Origin: Desulfuromonas sp.
GTDB taxonomy: Bacteria; Desulfobacterota; Desulfuromonadia; Desulfuromonadales; BM501
Direction of reading: 5' to 3'
DNA length: 44,107 nt
NCBI RefSeq assembly: GCF_002868845.1
Contig: NZ_PKUB01000016.1
Coordinates: 1 to 44,107 of the forward strand
Positions 25,844-37,032 of the stretch are shown here, piece by piece (the stretch's first letter is position 1; each line of letters begins with the position of its first letter). A model generated the notes under the pieces. It did not search any database, was not told the origin of the DNA, and was given only the letters and a program-made list of their open reading frames with translations. A program made the position numbers and the translations under genes.

Positions 25844-26327
25844 GGCCGGCTTCACCCTGGTCGAACTGGCGCTGGTCGTCCTGCTGGTCAGCCTTTTTTC
25901 CATGCTGACCCTGCCGACCCTTACCGGCCTCGGCCAGAACGAGCTCTCCGGCTCTGCCCGCCGCATTGCAGGAACGGTCAAGTACCTGTTCAACGAGTCG
26001 GCCCTGGACCGCCTGGAGTACCGGCTGACCTACGACCTCGACCGTGACACCTTCGGCGCCAAGAAGCTCGAGAGCAACGGGGAGTTGGTCGCGGTCACCG
26101 GCACCGGCCGCCAGCAGCGGCTCAAGGGGGGCGTTCGATTCAAGGACGTCCAGGTGACGGGGAGAGGGAAATTCAGCACCGGGGAAGTTACCACCTCCAT
26201 CCACCCGGTGGGCTGGCTGGACGAGACGGTGGTCCACCTGGAAAACGACCGGGGCAAGGCCCTGACCCTGAGGATCAACCCGTTCACCGGGTCGACGGAG
26301 GTCCATGAAGGCTACCTCGAGTTCTAA
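25812..26327 (+). CDS. gspH: Minor pseudopilin GspH
   Basis: A 171-residue minor pseudopilin. The leader MPTLKAGTWNRAG is followed by FTLVELALVVLLVSLFSML, a standard prepilin cleavage site (Gly-Phe, +5 Glu). The remaining periplasmic domain is beta-rich. Assignment to GspH rests on its place between gspG and gspI and on its length. The start overlaps the end of gspG by 32 nt, with GGGAGGCGAGGG upstream. Confidence 0.85.
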   Translation: MPTLKAGTWNRAGFTLVELALVVLLVSLFSMLTLPTLTGLGQNELSGSARRIAGTVKYLFNESALDRLEYRLTYDLDRDTFGAKKLESNGELVAVTGTGRQQRLKGGVRFKDVQVTGRGKFSTGEVTTSIHPVGWLDETVVHLENDRGKALTLRINPFTGSTEVHEGYLEF

Positions 26328-26703
26328 GGCCGGCGGCTTCACTCTGCTCGAAGCCATGATCGCCCTGGCTATCATCAGCATCGCCCTGGTCACTCTCCTG
26401 GGGCTGGGCAACCGCTCTATCGGCGTCAACGCCCGCCTGCAGAAGATCACCCAGGCCACCCTCCTGGCCCAGGAGAAGATGACCGAGATCGAGTTCGAAG
26501 CCGAGCTGGGCCGTCTCGACTTTCTGGAAAAGGAGGACGGCTTCGAGGCCCCCTTCGACGGATACCGCTGGCGGACCCGATACGAGGGCACCCCCCTGAC
26601 GGACGTCAAGATGGTCACCGTGACCGTCCTGTGGGGGGAGGAGAAGAAAAACGAGGCGGTGGACCTCAATTCATTCCTCCTTTCCGGCCCGCCGGGCTCC
26701 TGA
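26305..26703 (+). CDS. gspI: Minor pseudopilin GspI
   Basis: A 132-residue minor pseudopilin of the pseudopilus tip. The leader MKATSSSKAGG is followed by FTLLEAMIALAIISIALVTLLGLGNRSI, with Glu at +5. A segment like ITQATLLAQEKMTEIEFE is typical of GspI. It overlaps gspH by 23 nt and precedes gspJ by 7 nt. Confidence 0.88.
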   Translation: MKATSSSKAGGFTLLEAMIALAIISIALVTLLGLGNRSIGVNARLQKITQATLLAQEKMTEIEFEAELGRLDFLEKEDGFEAPFDGYRWRTRYEGTPLTDVKMVTVTVLWGEEKKNEAVDLNSFLLSGPPGS

Positions 26704-26710
26704 GGACTCG

Positions 26711-27358
26711 ATGCCGGACCGCAATTTCGCACCCGCTTCGGCCACGGCACGAAGCGAAAAGGGTTTTACCCTGCTGGAGGTCATGCTCGCGGTGACCATC
26801 ACCACCGTCGTGCTGCTGACCATCTACGGGGTCTTCACCTCGGTGAGCCGGGCCAAGGACCGCATGGAGTCCGAGGGCGAGGGCTACCACCAGGCCAGGG
26901 TCCTGTTCGACCGCATCGGCCGGGAAATCCGGGGCACATTCTACAACAATCGCGACCCCCGGACCCGCTTCGAGGGCGGGGTGGACGCGGACGGCGACCC
27001 CTTTCTGATCCTCTCCACCACCGCGGTCAGCCCGCAGAGCGGGCCGGGTGCCGGCATCGTTGTCGTGCGCTATCGCCTTGAAGGGGATCCCGGGCGGGAC
27101 GAGGGCAAAAAGGTCCTGCTGCGCAGCGAATACCCCCTGTTCGATACCGACGGCGAGGACCGGCCGACCTACCGCCTGGCGACGGGCATCACCGGGATGA
27201 GGGTGCGCTTCTACCGCAACGACGTATGGTACGAGGAGTGGGACGCCGAGGAGGAGAGGCTCCCGCAGATGATGGAGGTCCTGCTCGAACTGGCTGCCGG
27301 AGAGCAGAGCGTCCCCTTTCGCTCGACCTTCGAAGTGCCGGCGATCGGGGTGCAGTGA
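26711..27358 (+). CDS. gspJ: Minor pseudopilin GspJ
   Basis: A 215-residue minor pseudopilin. It has a longer leader (MPDRNFAPASATARSEKG) than its neighbours, then FTLLEVMLAVTITTVVLLTIYG with +5 Glu. The family-typical stretch HQARVLFDRIGREIRGTFYNN follows, then a beta-rich domain. Its TGA shares one base with the gspK ATG. GspJ joins GspI and GspK at the pseudopilus tip. Confidence 0.9.
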   Translation: MPDRNFAPASATARSEKGFTLLEVMLAVTITTVVLLTIYGVFTSVSRAKDRMESEGEGYHQARVLFDRIGREIRGTFYNNRDPRTRFEGGVDADGDPFLILSTTAVSPQSGPGAGIVVVRYRLEGDPGRDEGKKVLLRSEYPLFDTDGEDRPTYRLATGITGMRVRFYRNDVWYEEWDAEEERLPQMMEVLLELAAGEQSVPFRSTFEVPAIGVQ

Positions 27359-28299
27359 TGAAAGCTCTGCGCAATGAAGAAGGCACGGTTTTGCTGCTGG
27401 TCCTCGTGGTGGTGGCCCTGCTGACATCCCTGCTGACCGAGTTCGCCTTCTCCACCCTGGTGGACCTGCGGCTCACCGAAACCTTTCGGGACAGCACCAA
27501 GGCCTACTACCTCGCCAAGGGGGGGGTGCGGGCCGGGCGCATCATCCTCCAGAACGACCGCAACGGCTACGACGCCCGCAACGACCCGGAGGAGCTGTGG
27601 AGCCAGGGAATGGGCACCTTCCCGGTGGGCGGCGGCTCGGTCTCGGTCACCATCGAGGACCTCGGGGGCCGGCTGGACCTCAACCGCCTCGTGCTGAGCG
27701 ACGGGATCAACCCCAACCCCGCCGCCATCGACCGCCTGCTGCGCCTTTTCGAGATCCTGGAAATCGAGGAGGGAGAGGATCTGACCGCGGCCCTCATCGA
27801 CTGGATCGACGAGGACGAAGAGATCTACGACCTGCGCGGCTACGGCGCCGAGGACGAACACTATTTGCGCCTCGACCCGCCATACCCGACCAAGAACGGC
27901 AGTCTGAGCACCCTCGGCGAACTCGCCAGGGTGCGGGGCTTCACCCCGGAGGTCATCGGCCTGGTCACGCCGCACATCACGGTCTACGGCGGGGAGAAGA
28001 TCAACGTCAACACCGCCAGCGCCCAGGTGCTGATGTCCCTGTCGGAAGACCCGCTCATCGACGAGGCGGCGGCCGAGGCCATTATCGAACTCCGCGAATC
28101 GAAACCTTTCCGGAGCAGCCAGGACCTGAAGGGGCTGAACAGCCTGCCGGGGCTTGAAAACCTGCTTCGGGACCCCTTCACGGTGAAGAGCGACACCTAC
28201 CGGATCACGACGGAGGCCTGGGTAAACGACGGCAGCCGGGAGGTGGACGCGATCGTCACCAAGGACGGCGACAAACTCCTCTTTGTGAAAGTGAACTGA
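27358..28299 (+). CDS. gspK: Minor pseudopilin GspK
   Basis: A 313-residue tip pseudopilin, the largest minor subunit. The N-terminus MKALRNEEG-TVLLLVLVVVALLTSLL lacks the +5 Glu, as is normal for GspK. The family pattern follows: YYLAKGGVRAGRIIL, DLGGRLDLNRL, LIDWIDEDEE and KINVNTASAQVLMSL, with a helix-hairpin-helix-like alpha domain. The ATG at 27358 overlaps the gspJ stop; the frame is open upstream but only inside gspJ. gspL follows after 6 nt. Confidence 0.93.
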   Translation: MKALRNEEGTVLLLVLVVVALLTSLLTEFAFSTLVDLRLTETFRDSTKAYYLAKGGVRAGRIILQNDRNGYDARNDPEELWSQGMGTFPVGGGSVSVTIEDLGGRLDLNRLVLSDGINPNPAAIDRLLRLFEILEIEEGEDLTAALIDWIDEDEEIYDLRGYGAEDEHYLRLDPPYPTKNGSLSTLGELARVRGFTPEVIGLVTPHITVYGGEKINVNTASAQVLMSLSEDPLIDEAAAEAIIELRESKPFRSSQDLKGLNSLPGLENLLRDPFTVKSDTYRITTEAWVNDGSREVDAIVTKDGDKLLFVKVN

Positions 28300-28305
28300 C
28301 CAGTC

Positions 28306-29706
28306 ATGGCCAAACGCTTTATCGGAATCGACATCGACAGCCGGCACCTGCGGGTCGCCATTGCCGCCAGCGACAAGGGGCAGGCCACCCTGGTCTCGGC
28401 TACGAGCCAGCCCTACGCAGACCGGGAAGAACTGCTGCAGAAACTGCGCAAGGCAGTCGGCGGACCGCCGCGCTACGGAGACCGCCTCGCCGCCGCCCTG
28501 CCCGCCGGGGAGGGCTTCGCACGCTGGCTGTCCTTTCCCTTCGCCGACCTGAAGAAGATCGAGGCCGCCCTCAGCTTCGAACTCTCCGCCCAGTTGCCCG
28601 TCCCCGAAGAGGATTGCACCGCCGACTTCCAGAAACCGCTGGCCGCCGGGGGGGCCTTCACCGTCGCCGCAGCCGCGGGCCGAAACGAGGCCATCCGCCC
28701 CCTCGTGGAAACCTTCGAAGAGGCCGGCCTGCCGCTGCAGGTGCTCGACCTCGCCCCCTTCGCCTATGCCGCGGGTCTGCGCGGCGCTCTTGCCGACGGC
28801 CTTCTGGTCAGCCTCACCGAGGCCGAGACCACCCTCGCCCTGGTCCTCGAAGGGCGCCCGAGCAGCTACCGGCTCCTTCCGGCCGCGAGCGGCGGGACCG
28901 AACAGGGCCTGGTCCCCTCGCTGCTGCGGGAGGCCTCGGCCCTTCAAAGGGCCGCGGGGCGGGACGGGTTGCCCTTTCACCTGATCGGCTCCGGCGCCGC
29001 CCCAGCCCTGGTCGAGGCCCTGCGAGCCGAGGGCGTCGAGGCCGCAATCCCCGACCTCTCCCTCGAAGGGCGGCCCCTCGAGCCGGAGATGCTCCCCGTT
29101 GCGGCCCTCGCCCTGCGCGCCGCGATCCCGGAGAAGGAGCGGGAATTCAACTTCCGCAAGGGGGCCTTCGCCCTGAGCAGCGAGTGGTCTGCCCTCAAGA
29201 ACGGACTCATCGCGGCGGCCGTCCTCCTGACCCTCTCCGCGGCGAGCCTGGCCGGCGCCGCCTATCTCAACTATTCCCACAAGGCCGACCGCACCGAGGG
29301 CCTGAAGCAGGAGATGGTCCGGGTCTACAAAAAGGTCTTTCCCAAGGCCAAGACCATCGTCGACGTTCCCCTGCAGATGCAGAGCGGCATCAGCGAACTG
29401 CGCAAGCGCAGCCGCACCATCGGCGCCGCCGCCCAGTCCTCCCCCCTGGCGATTCTCCAGGAGATCTCCAGAAAACTTCCCGAGGAGATCACCATCGACA
29501 TCCGGGACTGGAACTACAGCCCGGAGACGGTCCGCATGGAGGGTCACACCACCTCCTTTGACGCCATCAACCAGATATCCAAGAGCCTCGAACAGTCCCC
29601 CCTCTTCCACGAGGCTCAGATCTCCGACGCCAAAATGAGCCTCGACGGCCGCCGGGTCGATTTTCGCATCACCCTGGCCCTGATCAAGGAGAAGGCCGAA
29701 CAATGA
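28306..29706 (+). CDS. gspL: Type II secretion protein GspL
   Basis: A 466-residue bitopic inner-membrane protein that couples GspE to the platform. It has an actin-like cytoplasmic part (about 1-290, beginning KRFIGIDIDSRHLRVAIAASDKG), a single membrane helix (LIAAAVLLTLSAASLAGAAYL, about 303-323) and a periplasmic ferredoxin-like domain (PEEITIDIRDWNYSPETVRMEG...). The start resembles PilM-type proteins. It overlaps gspM by 4 nt (ATGA). Confidence 0.88.
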   Translation: MAKRFIGIDIDSRHLRVAIAASDKGQATLVSATSQPYADREELLQKLRKAVGGPPRYGDRLAAALPAGEGFARWLSFPFADLKKIEAALSFELSAQLPVPEEDCTADFQKPLAAGGAFTVAAAAGRNEAIRPLVETFEEAGLPLQVLDLAPFAYAAGLRGALADGLLVSLTEAETTLALVLEGRPSSYRLLPAASGGTEQGLVPSLLREASALQRAAGRDGLPFHLIGSGAAPALVEALRAEGVEAAIPDLSLEGRPLEPEMLPVAALALRAAIPEKEREFNFRKGAFALSSEWSALKNGLIAAAVLLTLSAASLAGAAYLNYSHKADRTEGLKQEMVRVYKKVFPKAKTIVDVPLQMQSGISELRKRSRTIGAAAQSSPLAILQEISRKLPEEITIDIRDWNYSPETVRMEGHTTSFDAINQISKSLEQSPLFHEAQISDAKMSLDGRRVDFRITLALIKEKAEQ

Positions 29707-32209: not shown

Positions 32210-34657
32210 ATGAGTGAAGAGCAAGACCCGATGATCGACGCCGAACTGAACGGGGTCGAGCCCGGAGAGGACGAGTCCGAAGGCAGCCTGGTGGTCGCCG
32301 CCGAGATGCTCCCCTCCGGCCTGCCCATCGTCCCCCTGCGGCCCCGGCCCGCCTTTCCCGGCATCCTCATCCCCATGGCTCTCGCCGGCAAGGAGCAGAT
32401 GGCGCCGGTCAAGCGGGCCCTCGACACCCCCTCCCAGGCCATCGGCCTGGTCCTGGTCATGGACCTGGAGGCCGAGGACGGCCCCGAAAACCTGCACACG
32501 GTCGGGGTGGCCGGCAAGATCCTCAAGGTGATCCACGCCGACGAGGAGAGCATCCACATCCTCGTCAACTGCCTCCAGCGCTTCTCTCTCGAAGAGGTGA
32601 CCGAGACCGACCAGGGACTCTTCGCCCTGGCCCACCACCACCCCGAGGCCGAGCTTTCGGTCAACCCGGAGCTCAAGGCCTACTCCATGGCCATTCTCAG
32701 CACCCTGAAGGAGTTGGTACAGATCAACCCCCTCTACTCGGAGGAGATCAAGCTCTTTCTCAACCGCTCCAGCATGGACGACCCCGGGCGCCTGGCCGAC
32801 TTCGCGGCCAACCTGACCAGCGCTGACGGCCAGGAACTGCAGGGCATCCTCGAGACCTTCGACGTGCGCAAGCGCATCGACCGGGTCCTGGTCCTGCTCA
32901 AGAAGGAACTCGAAGTCTCGCGCCTGCAGACCAAGATCAGCAGACAGATCGAGGAGAAGGTCTCCGCCCACCAGAGGGAGTTCTTTCTCAAGGAGCAGCT
33001 CAAGGCGATCAAAAAAGAGCTCGGCCTGGAGAAAGAGGGCAAAACCACCGAGATCGAAAAGTTCCGGGAGCGCCTCAAGGGGCTGACCCTCGACGCCGAG
33101 GCCCAGAAGACCGTCGAAGAGGAACTCGAGAAGCTGCAGCTCATCGAACCCTCCTCGCCCGAATACAACGTCAGCCGCAACTACCTCGACTGGCTCACCA
33201 TCCTGCCCTGGGGCAAATTCAGCAAGGATTCCTACAACATCGACCGGGCCCGCCGGGTCCTCGACCGGGACCATTACGGCCTGGAGGACGTCAAGGAGCG
33301 CATCCTCGAGTTCATTGCCGTGGGCAAGATGAAGGGGGACATCTCCGGCTCCATCCTCTGCCTTGTGGGACCGCCCGGGGTCGGCAAGACGAGCGTCGGA
33401 CGCTCCATCGCAGACGCCCTCGGCCGCACCTTTTTCCGCTTCTCCCTCGGAGGGATGCGCGACGAGGCCGAGATCAAGGGCCACCGCCGCACCTATATCG
33501 GCGCCATGCCCGGCAAATTCATCCAGTCGATGAAGAGCGCCGGTACCGCCAACCCGGTCCTCATGCTCGACGAGATCGACAAGATCGGCGCCTCCTTCCA
33601 GGGCGACCCCGCCTCGGCCCTGCTCGAGGTCCTCGACCCGGAGCAGAACGCGGCCTTCCGCGACCACTACCTCGACGTCCCCTTCGACCTCTCCAACGTC
33701 ATGTTCGTGGCCACCGCCAACCAGCTCGACACCATTCCCGCTCCCCTGCTCGACCGCATGGAGATCATCCGGCTCTCCGGCTACATCCTCGAGGAGAAGG
33801 TGGAGATCGCCCGCCGCTACCTGATCCCCAAGGCGACAAAAAACCACGGCCTCGAGAAGGGACGGGTCACGATCCGCAAGGACGCCCTCCGTGCGATCAT
33901 CGACGGCTGGGCCCGCGAGGCAGGCGTGCGCGGCCTGGAGAACCACATCAAGAAAATCATGCGCAAGGCGGCCATGGCGTTCGCCAAGGGACGCGAAGAG
34001 AAGATCGTCATCGCCCGGCGGGACCTTGTGGAATACCTCGGACAGCCGCTCTTCGCCGGAGAAGACCTCTTCGAAGAGGCCCCCGGGATCGTTACCGGCC
34101 TGGCCTGGACGAGCCTCGGGGGGGCGACCCTCCAGATCGAGGCGACCGCGGTGCCGAGTAAGGCCAAGGGGTTCAAGCAGACCGGACAGCTCGGCGACGT
34201 CATGGTGGAGAGCTCGGAGATCGCCTACTCCTACGTCATGGCCCATCTCCAGGGGTACGGGGCCGAAGCCGACTTCTTCGACACCCACTTCGTACACCTT
34301 CACGTCCCTGCCGGGGCCACCCCCACGGACGGCCCCTCCGCCGGGGTCACCATGACCACCGCGCTGGTCTCCATGATCACCGGCAAGCCGGTGCGCAAAA
34401 AACTCGGCATGACCGGCGAGCTGAGCCTCACCGGGCGGGTGCTGCCCATCGGCGGGGTCAAGGAAAAGACCATCGCCGCCCGCCGCGCCGGCCTTTCGAC
34501 CCTGATCTTTCCCGAGGCCAACCGCAAGGACTTCGACGAGCTTCCCGATTACCTTCGCGAGGGGATCGAGATCCACTATGCCCGTGAATACAGGGATGTC
34601 CAACGGGTTGCATTCGGTGCACCCCGCCGCACAGGCGCCCGCAAACCCAAGCCTTAA
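32210..34657 (+). CDS. lon: ATP-dependent protease Lon
   Basis: An 815-residue cytoplasmic AAA+ serine protease for quality control and regulated proteolysis. It has an N-terminal substrate-binding LON domain (about 35-230, LPIVPLRPRPAFPGILIPM), a coiled-coil and helical part (REFFLKEQLKAIKKELG), the AAA+ module with Walker A GPPGVGKTS (about 386), Walker B VLMLDEIDKIG and a sensor region (ATANQLDTIP), and the peptidase domain with catalytic Ser in DGPSAGV (about 710) and Lys in GGVKEKTIAA (about 751). AAGGAG lies about 10 bases before the ATG. The acidic N-terminal extension (EEQDPMIDAELNGVEPGEDESEG) is typical of this lineage. Two small genes follow in the same direction. Confidence 0.97.
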   Translation: MSEEQDPMIDAELNGVEPGEDESEGSLVVAAEMLPSGLPIVPLRPRPAFPGILIPMALAGKEQMAPVKRALDTPSQAIGLVLVMDLEAEDGPENLHTVGVAGKILKVIHADEESIHILVNCLQRFSLEEVTETDQGLFALAHHHPEAELSVNPELKAYSMAILSTLKELVQINPLYSEEIKLFLNRSSMDDPGRLADFAANLTSADGQELQGILETFDVRKRIDRVLVLLKKELEVSRLQTKISRQIEEKVSAHQREFFLKEQLKAIKKELGLEKEGKTTEIEKFRERLKGLTLDAEAQKTVEEELEKLQLIEPSSPEYNVSRNYLDWLTILPWGKFSKDSYNIDRARRVLDRDHYGLEDVKERILEFIAVGKMKGDISGSILCLVGPPGVGKTSVGRSIADALGRTFFRFSLGGMRDEAEIKGHRRTYIGAMPGKFIQSMKSAGTANPVLMLDEIDKIGASFQGDPASALLEVLDPEQNAAFRDHYLDVPFDLSNVMFVATANQLDTIPAPLLDRMEIIRLSGYILEEKVEIARRYLIPKATKNHGLEKGRVTIRKDALRAIIDGWAREAGVRGLENHIKKIMRKAAMAFAKGREEKIVIARRDLVEYLGQPLFAGEDLFEEAPGIVTGLAWTSLGGATLQIEATAVPSKAKGFKQTGQLGDVMVESSEIAYSYVMAHLQGYGAEADFFDTHFVHLHVPAGATPTDGPSAGVTMTTALVSMITGKPVRKKLGMTGELSLTGRVLPIGGVKEKTIAARRAGLSTLIFPEANRKDFDELPDYLREGIEIHYAREYRDVQRVAFGAPRRTGARKPKP

Positions 34658-34978: not shown

Positions 34979-35764
34979 ATGGCAGCAAAACCTCTGTGGA
35001 TATGGATCGGGATCGTGGCGGCACTTCTGGCCGCCGGCTGCGCCGGCAACAAGCAACAGATGGCGCCCGCGAACTACGCCAGGGACCTCACCACCGGAAT
35101 GGAGTTCGTGCTGGCCCCAGCGGGGTGCTTTCCCATGGGGGACCTGTGGGAGAGCGGAAGCAAAAGTGAAGGGCCGGTGCACGAGGTGTGCCTCGACGCC
35201 TTCTACATGGGCAAGTACGAGGTCACCCAGGGGCAGTGGAAAGCGGTGATGGGCGAGAACCCGGCCTATTTCCAGAAGGGCGACGACCATCCCGTGGAGC
35301 AGGTCTCCATCGACGACGCCCGGGAGTTCATCGAGAGACTGAATCGCAAAAGCGGCAGGGGCTACCGCCTGCCGACCGAGGCCGAGTGGGAATACGCCTG
35401 CCGCAGCGGGGGAAAAAGGGAGCCTTTCTGCGGCAGCGACCAGCCGTCGGAGGTGGCCTGGTTCGACCGCACCGGAGGGGGAAGCACCCAACCGGTCGGG
35501 CAGAAACGCCCGAACGGGCTGGGGTTGTTCGACATGAGCGGCAATGTGTGGGAATTCAGCTCCGACCTGTACGGGGAAGACTACTATGCAACCAGTCCCC
35601 GCAACAACCCCCAGGGCCCAGTTGAAGGTACCTACAGCGTCAAGCGCGGCGGAAGCTGGAGCATCAACCCCCGGTTCCTGCGCTCGACCGTCCGCGGCAG
35701 GACTGATTTCGACACCCGCCACTACTCCACCGGGTTCCGGATCGCCTTTCCCGCCGTCCCCTGA
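34979..35764 (+). CDS. SUMF1/FGE-fold lipoprotein
   Basis: A 261-residue lipoprotein. The signal peptide ends in LAAGC with the lipidated Cys at residue 21. A single SUMF1 (formylglycine-generating-enzyme-like) domain follows: GMEFVLAPAGCFPMGD, YEVTQGQW, HPVEQVSIDDA, YRLPTEAEWEYACR, GLFDMSGNVWE and VKRGGSW. The C-terminal core after RGGSW (SINPRFLRSTVRGRTDF) lacks the paired cysteines that true formylglycine-generating enzymes use, so sulfatase maturation is unlikely. Periplasm-facing binding or structural roles are known for this fold. GGAAAGGA lies before the ATG. Confidence 0.88.
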   Translation: MAAKPLWIWIGIVAALLAAGCAGNKQQMAPANYARDLTTGMEFVLAPAGCFPMGDLWESGSKSEGPVHEVCLDAFYMGKYEVTQGQWKAVMGENPAYFQKGDDHPVEQVSIDDAREFIERLNRKSGRGYRLPTEAEWEYACRSGGKREPFCGSDQPSEVAWFDRTGGGSTQPVGQKRPNGLGLFDMSGNVWEFSSDLYGEDYYATSPRNNPQGPVEGTYSVKRGGSWSINPRFLRSTVRGRTDFDTRHYSTGFRIAFPAVP

Positions 35765-35787
35765 GCCTTCACCCTGTGGACGGACCG

Positions 35788-35820
35788 CTCCTTGTCCCGA
35801 CACTGCAACGAGACAAGGAG
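35788..35820 (+). terminator. Hairpin downstream of the SUMF1 gene (weak terminator candidate)
   Basis: A perfect 9-bp stem CTCCTTGTC / GACAAGGAG with a 15-nt loop lies 23 nt past the stop. There is no U-tract, so it may be a Rho-assisted or processing site instead of an intrinsic terminator. Confidence 0.35.
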
Positions 35821-35842
35821 TGGCCTCCCAGCCCGTTTCCCG

Positions 35843-35871
35843 TTGACGGAACCGTTCAAAATTGCTAGCGT
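35843..35871 (+). promoter_or_regulatory. Promoter for the trpS leader and trpS
   Basis: TTGACG (35843-35848) and TAGCGT (35866-35871) have a 17-base spacer. The expected start is near 35878, only a few bases before the leader-peptide ATG at 35881, so the leader message would be almost leaderless. Confidence 0.5.
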
Positions 35872-35880
35872 ACCGAGGTT

Positions 35881-35937
35881 ATGAACATTTCTTACCGCAA
35901 CATTGAACCCCGCTGGTGGCGCTGGACCGATACATAA
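35881..35937 (+). CDS. Tryptophan-rich leader peptide of trpS
   Basis: An 18-codon frame, MNISYRNIEPRWWRWTDT then TAA, with Trp codons at 35914, 35917 and 35923 (W-W-R-W). Three Trp in 18 residues is far above chance and sits directly upstream of a tryptophanyl-tRNA synthetase gene and its attenuator. CGAGG lies just before the ATG, close for a ribosome site; if transcription starts near 35878 it may be translated as a leaderless message. When charged tRNA-Trp is scarce, the ribosome should stall on these codons and change the folding of the RNA behind it. Confidence 0.7.
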   Translation: MNISYRNIEPRWWRWTDT

Positions 35938-36006
35938 TCTGGTCCGGGCCCTCGCATTGATTGAGCCGCCACGGACCGCCCGGTCCGCGGTCCTGATAAA
36001 ATGACA
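35924..36006 (+). promoter_or_regulatory. Attenuator of trpS: alternative pairing segments
   Basis: Segment 1, GGACCG (35924-35929, over the last Trp codon), pairs perfectly with CGGTCC (35981-35986). Segment 2, GGTCCGCGG (35982-35990), can instead pair with CCGCGGCCC (36011-36019), 8 of 9 bases, which is the 5' arm of the terminator. A further hairpin, GGTCCG (35941-35946) with CGGACC (35972-35977), can form in between. A ribosome stalled on the Trp codons covers segment 1, frees segment 2 and so breaks the terminator. Pairings were found by eye; no energies were computed. Confidence 0.65.
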
Positions 36007-36035
36007 AAAGCCGCGGCCCTTGACCGCGGCTTTTT
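36007..36035 (+). terminator. Intrinsic terminator of the trpS attenuator
   Basis: The 10-bp stem AAAGCCGCGG / CCGCGGCTTT (36007-36016 with 36024-36033) with a 7-nt loop is followed by a T-run. It lies 32 nt before the trpS start, i.e. in the leader, where a terminator only makes sense as a regulated one. Confidence 0.8.
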
Positions 36036-36066
36036 CGTATCCAATTACTGACAAAAGGAATCCGAC

Positions 36067-37032
36067 ATGCGCGTACTCTCGGGAATTCAACCTTCCGGCT
36101 CCCTGCACCTGGGCAACTACTTCGGCATGATGAAGAAGATGATCGAATACCAGGAGAAGGAGGAGCTCTTCTGCTTCATCGCCAACTACCACGCCCAGAC
36201 GAGTCTCTCCGACGGCAAAAAGCTGGCCGTGGGGACCCTGGAGGCGGCGGCCAACTTCCTCGCCCTCGGCATGGACCCCGAGAAGAGCACTTTCTGGGTG
36301 CAGTCGGACGTGCCGGAGGTGCAGGAGCTGGCCTGGGTCCTCTCCAACTTCACCCCCATGGGGCTGCTCGAGCGCTGCCACAGCTACAAGGACAAGGTCG
36401 CCAACAAGATAAAGCCGAACCACGGCCTCTTCGCCTATCCGGTGCTGATGACCGCCGACATCCTGATGTTCCATAGCGACAAGGTCCCCGTCGGCAAGGA
36501 CCAGAAGCAGCACGTGGAGGTGGCCCGGGACGTCGCCATCAAGTTCAACAACGAATACGGCGAAATCTTCACCCTCCCCGAGCCGGAGATCGACCAGGAC
36601 GTGGCCACCGTCCCCGGCCTCGACGGCAGAAAAATGAGCAAGAGCTACGGCAACACCATCGACCTCTTCCTCGAGGAGAAGGCCCTGCGCAAGCAGATCA
36701 TGCGCATCGTCACCGACCCGACCCCGGTGGAGGACCCCAAGGACCCGGACACCTGCAACGTCTTCCAGATCTACCGCCTGTTCGTGGACAAGGAGCAGGA
36801 GGCCGCCCTGCGCAGTCACTACGAGGCGGGTGGCCTGGGCTACGGAGAGGTGAAGCAGGAGCTGTTCGAGACCGTGCGCGACTTCTTCGCCCCCTATACC
36901 GAGCGGCGGAACGAACTGATCGCCGACAAGGACGGGTTGCGCAAGACCCTGGCGGCCGGCGCCGAGAAGGCCCGCTGGGCGGCGGCCAAGACCCTGCGCA
37001 AAGTGAGGAAGAAAACGGGGTTGACCTACTAA
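36067..37032 (+). CDS. trpS: Tryptophanyl-tRNA synthetase
   Basis: A 321-residue class I synthetase that charges tRNA-Trp. The HIGH-type signature is SLHLGNY (GIQPSGSLHLGNYFG, residues 6-20) and the KMSKS motif is intact (GRKMSKSYGN, about 190). Length and block order match bacterial TrpS (FIANYHAQTSL, NHGLFAYPVLMTADIL, VGKDQKQHVEVARDVA). AAAGGA lies before the ATG at 36067. It is transcribed alone, from a promoter about 200 nt upstream through a leader peptide and attenuator, and ends in a very strong terminator. Confidence 0.98.
   Translation: MRVLSGIQPSGSLHLGNYFGMMKKMIEYQEKEELFCFIANYHAQTSLSDGKKLAVGTLEAAANFLALGMDPEKSTFWVQSDVPEVQELAWVLSNFTPMGLLERCHSYKDKVANKIKPNHGLFAYPVLMTADILMFHSDKVPVGKDQKQHVEVARDVAIKFNNEYGEIFTLPEPEIDQDVATVPGLDGRKMSKSYGNTIDLFLEEKALRKQIMRIVTDPTPVEDPKDPDTCNVFQIYRLFVDKEQEAALRSHYEAGGLGYGEVKQELFETVRDFFAPYTERRNELIADKDGLRKTLAAGAEKARWAAAKTLRKVRKKTGLTY

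Follow-up and report, generated by a model that had tools for sequence, protein, structure and literature searches.

In the trp operon of E. coli, a biosynthetic operon, attenuation involves four RNA segments and a leader peptide initiated at a Shine-Dalgarno sequence. A more elaborate wiring is found in the his attenuator of Salmonella, where six segments, A to F, pair either as A:B, C:D and E:F, the latter being the terminator, or as B:C and D:E; termination is the default when the leader is not translated (PMC4046918). Attenuators controlling trpS are known in Streptomyces. One with a Trp leader peptide has been predicted upstream of trpS2 in S. avermitilis (PMC1262725), that of S. lividans (trpL2) has been detected by RNA-seq, and trpL1, the trpE leader of the same species, is leaderless (PMC8079986). 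The attenuator of an auxiliary Streptomyces trpS is named in the title of Vecchione and Sello 2010, as cited in PMC4787780. In Sinorhizobium meliloti the trpLE(G) transcript starts at the leader ATG and the leader carries consecutive Trp codons; both the RNA (rnTrpL) and the peptide (peTrpL) have reported functions in trans (PMC7298713). A small leader CDS has been found by ribosome profiling in the trpS mRNA of Caulobacter crescentus (PMC4117421).

The DNA described in this work (the window) is a stretch of 44,107 nucleotides from Desulfuromonas sp. It includes trpS, encoding a tryptophanyl-tRNA synthetase of 321 aa (36067-37032, plus strand) and found in a sole copy in the genome. We consider it highly likely that the gene is controlled by a ribosome-mediated transcription attenuator with six-segment wiring of the his type and a near-leaderless leader peptide. 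The likeness to the Salmonella his attenuator resides in the wiring, as the same hairpin alternation is predicted for the trpS leader, and no sequence homology is claimed; the leader has Trp codons, the target is a synthetase and not a biosynthetic operon, and the start would be near-leaderless. As in the E. coli trp attenuator, Trp codons of a leader peptide would govern an intrinsic terminator but, unlike in E. coli, trpE of the same genome lacks a Trp leader. A Trp leader peptide followed by hairpins upstream of trpS is a trait shared with Streptomyces. Yet, TrpL2 of S. lividans (MMTRTCTQLWRAA), an actinobacterial leader, has one Trp, two hairpins and no U-rich tract (PMC8079986), whereas trpS leaders of Desulfuromonadales combine 2-4 Trp codons and three hairpins with a strong U-tract. 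The S. meliloti attenuator shares the consecutive Trp codons, and its leaderless start is akin to the near-leaderless one predicted here, but its target is trpE(G) and not trpS. The likeness to Caulobacter consists in a small CDS preceding trpS.

Attenuation of trpS is on record in Streptomyces, as are leaderless Trp leaders there and in Sinorhizobium, so the trpS attenuator described here belongs to a known type of system, as a new member. A first-pass annotation of the window regarded such control of trpS as little described in this lineage; this appears to hold as far as the open literature goes, but trpS control as such is not new in bacteria, being already known in Streptomyces. No report on leader-peptide control of Trp genes in Desulfuromonadales has been found in the open-access literature, a set to which the proteobacterial survey of Vitreschak et al. 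2004 does not belong.

The leader peptide and its promoter

The leader peptide ORF (MNISYRNIEPRWWRWTDT; 35881-35937, plus strand) consists of 18 codons, translates as M N I S Y R N I E P R W W R W T D T stop, and ends at a UAA codon at 35935. The Trp codons W12, W13 and W15 are located at 35914-35916, 35917-35919 and 35923-35925, respectively. Direct reading of the sequence bears out the earlier description of an 18-codon peptide with W-W-R-W in front of trpS. A short ORF rich in Trp codons precedes the cognate gene, and peptides containing WW recur at the equivalent place in orthologues. The Trp run is kept among orthologous leaders, while the rest of the peptide varies in sequence and length, N-termini included; typical orthologous peptides contain WWRWTDT, WWRWALI, WWRRTIV, WWWRSAFMD or WWRWTDSSFGSRACLR. 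Among ATG ORFs of 8-40 codons, just one other in the 44,107-nt window, at 27374, has 3 Trp in 4 codons. This ORF, the sole one comparable, has been set aside, being an out-of-frame reading within a pilin-like gene. The region 26305-29706 of the window hosts genes resembling, by eye, minor pseudopilins and a GspL-like protein, as in type II secretion or pilus clusters.

The promoter includes a -35 box TTGACG (35843-35848), a 17-nt spacer ending with TGC, and a -10 box TAGCGT (35866-35871, plus strand), assigned from the sequence and from the geometry of orthologues. It is located between the upstream gene, which ends at 35764, and the terminator hairpin, outside the region that the first-pass annotation had assigned to the attenuator. 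The -10 box matches TATAAT in 3/6 bases, below the threshold of a consensus scan, which for this reason missed the promoter. TTGACG-N17-TAGCGT has been taken as a promoter because it is conserved in orthologues. The composite promoter pattern has 3 matches in the 3.7-Mb genome, one of which is the trpS site, and 0 in a reversed control. In the leaders of Desulfuromonadales the sequence TTGAC[G/C]-N17-TAnnnT is followed, after 7-10 nt, by the ATG. The geometry is near-constant, with the exception of one 18-nt spacer, one TTGATT and one leader mis-parsed at the first -10 match; three distant leaders (L202, L204 and L206) differ in -10 sequence or spacing.

In the window the leader ATG lies 9 nt beyond the -10 box. 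Transcription would start at 35877-35880 on the plus strand, 1-4 nt 5' of the ATG; with initiation 6-8 nt past the -10 box, about 4 nt at most would precede the ATG. This geometry suggests a near-leaderless leader mRNA. The near-leaderless start of the peptide, called unusual in the first-pass annotation, agrees with the promoter geometry kept in orthologues, which gives the putative position of the start.

Six segments in predicted alternative pairings

An intrinsic terminator, conserved in orthologues, separates the leader ORF from the gene. It features an 11-bp stem (36006-36016/36024-36034) and a T-run (36031-36035). Since the T-run extends to 36035 and the trpS ATG, preceded by a Shine-Dalgarno-like AAGGA at 36055-36059 (plus strand), is at 36067, the distance of 32 nt previously reported between terminator and gene is correct. 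The stem 36006-36034 scores as a terminator also on the minus strand, because an A-run and a T-run flank it. The folding energy of the leader region is -63.6 kcal/mol, while shuffles average -51.8 +/- 4.2 (z -2.85; 0/200).

Six segments, all on the plus strand, can be delimited in the region. Segment 1 (GGCGCUGGACC; 35918-35928) overlaps the Trp codons and pairs with segment 2, as indicated by folds and by the covariation of helix 1:2. Segment 2 (GGUCCGGGCC; 35941-35950) comes right after the stop codon, and pairs with segment 1 or 3 according to folds, duplex tests and partition function. Segment 3 (GCCACGGACC; 35968-35977) pairs with 2 in the antiterminator or with 4 in the terminated state, and segment 4 (GGUCCGCGGU; 35982-35991) pairs with 3 or 5, as indicated by folds, duplex tests, partition function and, for 3:4, covariation. 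Segments 5 (AAAAGCCGCGGCC; 36006-36018) and 6 (36024-36035) are the 5' arm, and the 3' arm plus T-run, of the terminator, both identified by sequence, folds and covariation. In the window a separate middle hairpin is formed by about 35968-35977 with 35982-35991; the antiterminator pairs GGUCCGGGCC with GCCACGGACC (2:3) and GGUCCGCGGU with GCCGCGGCC (4:5). The wiring is therefore that of the Salmonella his design, with 1:2, 3:4 and 5:6 alternating with 2:3 and 4:5. The four-segment wiring initially proposed, in which 1:2 plus 3:4 alternate with 2:3, is incomplete, as the separate middle hairpin makes the segments six.

The structural analysis has been carried out on 35 orthologous leaders. Folded on its own, each leader that could be parsed (all but L206) forms a 1:2 hairpin holding the Trp codons, a middle 3:4 hairpin and the 5:6 terminator. 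Mean z-scores of duplexes between neighbouring segments, compared to shuffles, are -2.2 (1:2), -1.6 (2:3), -2.7 (3:4), -2.4 (4:5) and -5.5 (5:6), those of 1:2, 3:4 and 5:6 being favoured by the fact that the limits of these segments were set by the fold of each sequence. For the non-neighbour duplexes 1:3, 1:4, 2:4, 2:5, 2:6, 3:5 and 4:6, mean z-scores in the same leaders stay between 0.1 and -1.2. Neighbours thus beat shuffles, and non-neighbours mostly do not, as expected for a his-type alternation; own pairing of 2:3 is better than swapped pairing in just 21/35 leaders.

Covariation was monitored in an alignment of 21 leaders, from which the most diverged were omitted. In the helices of the terminated state, a change of both partners has been counted in 9 pairs and 19 cells, while shuffles give 4.6 and 7.1 (1/500 and 0/500, respectively). 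The pairs of the antiterminator persist in 88% of the cells, against 33-47% when the pairing is slid, and covariation in the antiterminator helices 2:3 and 4:5 is no greater than in shuffles of the same alignment. Support to the latter helices therefore comes from conserved complementarity and fold computation instead. The compensatory changes that the first-pass annotation had proposed to look for are found in the terminated-state helices, but those of the antiterminator stay at the level of shuffles.

Partition functions were computed at the decision point, on transcripts that stop right short of segment 6, in three settings: Trp codons left free, Trp codons blocked, and a ribosome placed on the stop codon. 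In the window, expected pairs in 2:3, 3:4 and 4:5 go from 0.1, 8.1 and 1.4 to 13.0, 0.1 and 9.8 once the Trp codons are blocked. Masking the Trp codons, a check suggested along with the original reading, flips the predicted pairing to 2:3 plus 4:5. The switch index of the window, calculated on segment pairs fixed beforehand from the results of the 35 leaders, is 29.4, compared to -0.1 +/- 5.2 in dinucleotide shuffles, and 0/300 shuffles are as strong. Mean values of the 35 leaders for 2:3, 3:4 and 4:5 are 1.7, 6.0 and 2.5 when codons are free, 6.4, 3.0 and 5.8 when leaders are blocked through the last Trp codon, and 0.5, 4.8 and 3.6 with the ribosome at the stop. Some leaders, for example L003, L015, L019, L053 and L174, switch weakly or not at all in the simulation. 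The computation predicts that an exclusive antiterminator would be favoured by a ribosome sitting on the regulatory codons. When the Trp codons are blocked in folds of the full-length leaders, the terminator persists in most of them; antitermination must hence be kinetic, and settled before segment 6 is made. The decision is likewise kinetic in other attenuators.

The distance between the first Trp codon and segment 2 is 20-31 nt (median 27), that between the last Trp codon and segment 2 is 8-25 nt (median 18), and nearly all leaders have the stop codon close to segment 2. Given the general size of a ribosome footprint, a ribosome on a Trp codon should spare segment 2 in most leaders because of the codon-to-segment distance, whereas one that terminates at the nearby stop codon would in most cases mask it.

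Distribution and decay among relatives

Upstream regions were fetched for the order Desulfuromonadales, and 107 trpS loci, distributed among 21 families, had enough upstream sequence. A leader was defined by a TTGA promoter, an ATG at a near-constant distance from it, and a short peptide whose Trp residues are adjacent or nearly so. Promoter, ATG and WW peptide precede trpS in 34 of the 107 loci, representing 11 of the 21 families, and two thirds of the sampled members of the order have no trpS leader. In the 11 families hairpins and terminator recur with promoter and WW peptide as one unit. By its trpS orthologues the window belongs in Desulfuromonadales or close to this order, the nearest named relative being an uncultured Desulfuromonadales MAG (88% identity). 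Leaders with WWWRW or WWWR have been identified also in L202, L204 and L206, more distant members of the phylum in which TrpS is 63-65% identical. Many trpS loci, with or without the leader, have in common an upstream gene which reads as lon, and can on this ground be regarded as orthologous; in the window we take the gene at 32210-34657, recognised from its sequence, to be lon. In a quick, weakly supported TrpS tree the leader is scattered, requires 12 changes, and is present in the outgroup. This distribution would fit an old element lost many times; multiple gains may also have occurred.

With a covariance model of the leader, the trpS site reaches 98.8 bits and the next site of the genome 36, and order-wide matches of at least 46 bits are all upstream of trpS. 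Matches below about 45 bits were not counted as evidence alone, because GC-rich hairpins dominate the model. A Trp leader was looked for and not found upstream of trpE in the genome hosting the window, and no convincing one precedes trpE in 30 relatives of the order. The trpE region of this genome (L220, 1370-1440) contains a promoter-like TTGACG-N17-TAGCCT sequence, which lacks both leader peptide and terminator. In other Desulfobacterota, Trp-rich leaders with hairpins upstream of trpE-like genes have been found with the model and inspected by eye (L272, L273, L274, L276, L277, L279, L280, L282 and L284). In these loci the Trp leader peptide is followed by two hairpins/terminators and next by a gene similar to trpE of the window genome or, in L274 and L277, by one resembling a DAHP synthase gene. 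By eye, these leaders appear to share the alternating-hairpin design.

Intact orthologous leaders have Trp codons, in line with the original reading, and the exceptions are two decayed copies, L004 and L039. In L004 promoter, hairpins and terminator are kept, but the peptide (MKSIHSIHRTYQGWR) has a single Trp; in L039 the WW is gone. In L059 hardly anything separates promoter and terminator, while L021 and L006 retain the promoter but no leader. These five loci can be read, from their sequences, as a decay series. In L026 (310-190 nt upstream of trpS) the reading frame of the leader ATG no longer matches that of the Trp codons past ATGAAAAAAG, possibly due to a sequencing or assembly error in the A-run, or because the leader is broken; L203 is masked by N. 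As far as sequence comparison goes, the exceptional loci show that the trpS leader is dispensable in evolution.

Alternative readings and the proposed mechanism

The same attenuation might be wired as in E. coli trp, with four segments and 1:2 plus a 3:4 terminator opposed to 2:3. Segment 2 (GGUCCGGGCC) is indeed partly complementary to the terminator 5' arm (GCGGCCC). In such a design the 3' strand of the antiterminator should be the terminator 5' arm, but segment 2 pairs with the middle hairpin, which is a separate structure in the folds of the leaders analysed and varies compatibly; moreover, 2:5 and 3:5 barely beat shuffles (z -0.7 and -1.0) compared to 4:5 (-2.4). The conservation of the middle hairpin and the weakness of 2:5 lead us to reject the four-segment wiring, to which we assign little likelihood. 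A different objection concerns the signal. The peptide could act as a TnaC-like arrest peptide, sensing free tryptophan in the ribosome and not Trp-tRNA charging, and Trp residues are in fact near the end of a short peptide. Yet, beyond the Trp run both sequence and length of the peptide vary, unlike in an arrest peptide, and repeated Trp codons would rather suit stalling on scarce charged tRNA. The arrest hypothesis is quite improbable, and we infer that charged tRNA is sensed instead of free tryptophan.

The hairpin might do no more than terminate the upstream gene or act as an insulator, with Trp codons occurring by chance, as could be argued from its score on the minus strand and from the end of the upstream gene at 35764. 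The two are, however, separated by a promoter; the latter recurs as a unit with WW peptide, segments and terminator in 11 families, and the switch index is above that of all 300 shuffles, which makes this reading highly improbable. Synthetase genes are controlled by T-boxes in Firmicutes (PMC1262725), and a T-box, or another riboswitch, might sense Trp-tRNA in place of a translated leader. This has a practically negligible likelihood, as Trp codons are in frame and at near-fixed spacing from segment 2, and no T-box or other plausible Rfam match at E <= 10 occurs in 35780-36080; at gathering score, Rfam finds nothing in the window and nothing but tRNAs in 20 orthologous loci.

Trp-codon leader-peptide attenuation of trpS is, by contrast with these rivals, strongly supported as a prediction by the comparison of the 35 orthologous leaders. 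Very probably, slow translation of the leader in Trp-tRNA shortage turns off a transcription stop signal. RNA polymerase would begin 1-4 nt 5' of the leader ATG, and a ribosome would load at the 5' end. As long as Trp-tRNA is ample, this ribosome would get to the UAA at 35935 and mask segment 2; 3:4 would pair, 5:6 would form next, and transcription would end without reaching trpS. If instead charged tRNA(Trp) is scarce, either because the cell is starved of Trp or because TrpRS is in short supply, the ribosome would stall on W12, W13 or W15, masking segment 1 and leaving segment 2 free. Helix 2:3 would then form, segment 4 would pair with 5, and the terminator would be too late to form, allowing the transcription of trpS. 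Without translation 1:2, 3:4 and 5:6 would all form, leading to termination.

The trpS attenuator is well conserved, and its combination of target, wiring and start is unusual. It is quite possible, though we do not lean towards it, that Trp attenuators with his-type wiring and a near-leaderless start form a class of their own throughout Desulfobacterota, placed in Desulfuromonadales on trpS and not on trpE, so that a shortage of Trp-tRNA would first raise the charging capacity; at trpS the class would be old, lost many times, and visible in stages of decay. The proposed attenuator adds a case of synthetase control spread over the order Desulfuromonadales, in which Trp attenuation is placed on trpS while trpE of the same genome is free of a Trp leader. 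The decaying leaders illustrate how attenuator switches get lost. The putative near-leaderless start and the six-segment wiring make the trpS leader a compact, testable model of leaderless translation coupled to attenuation.
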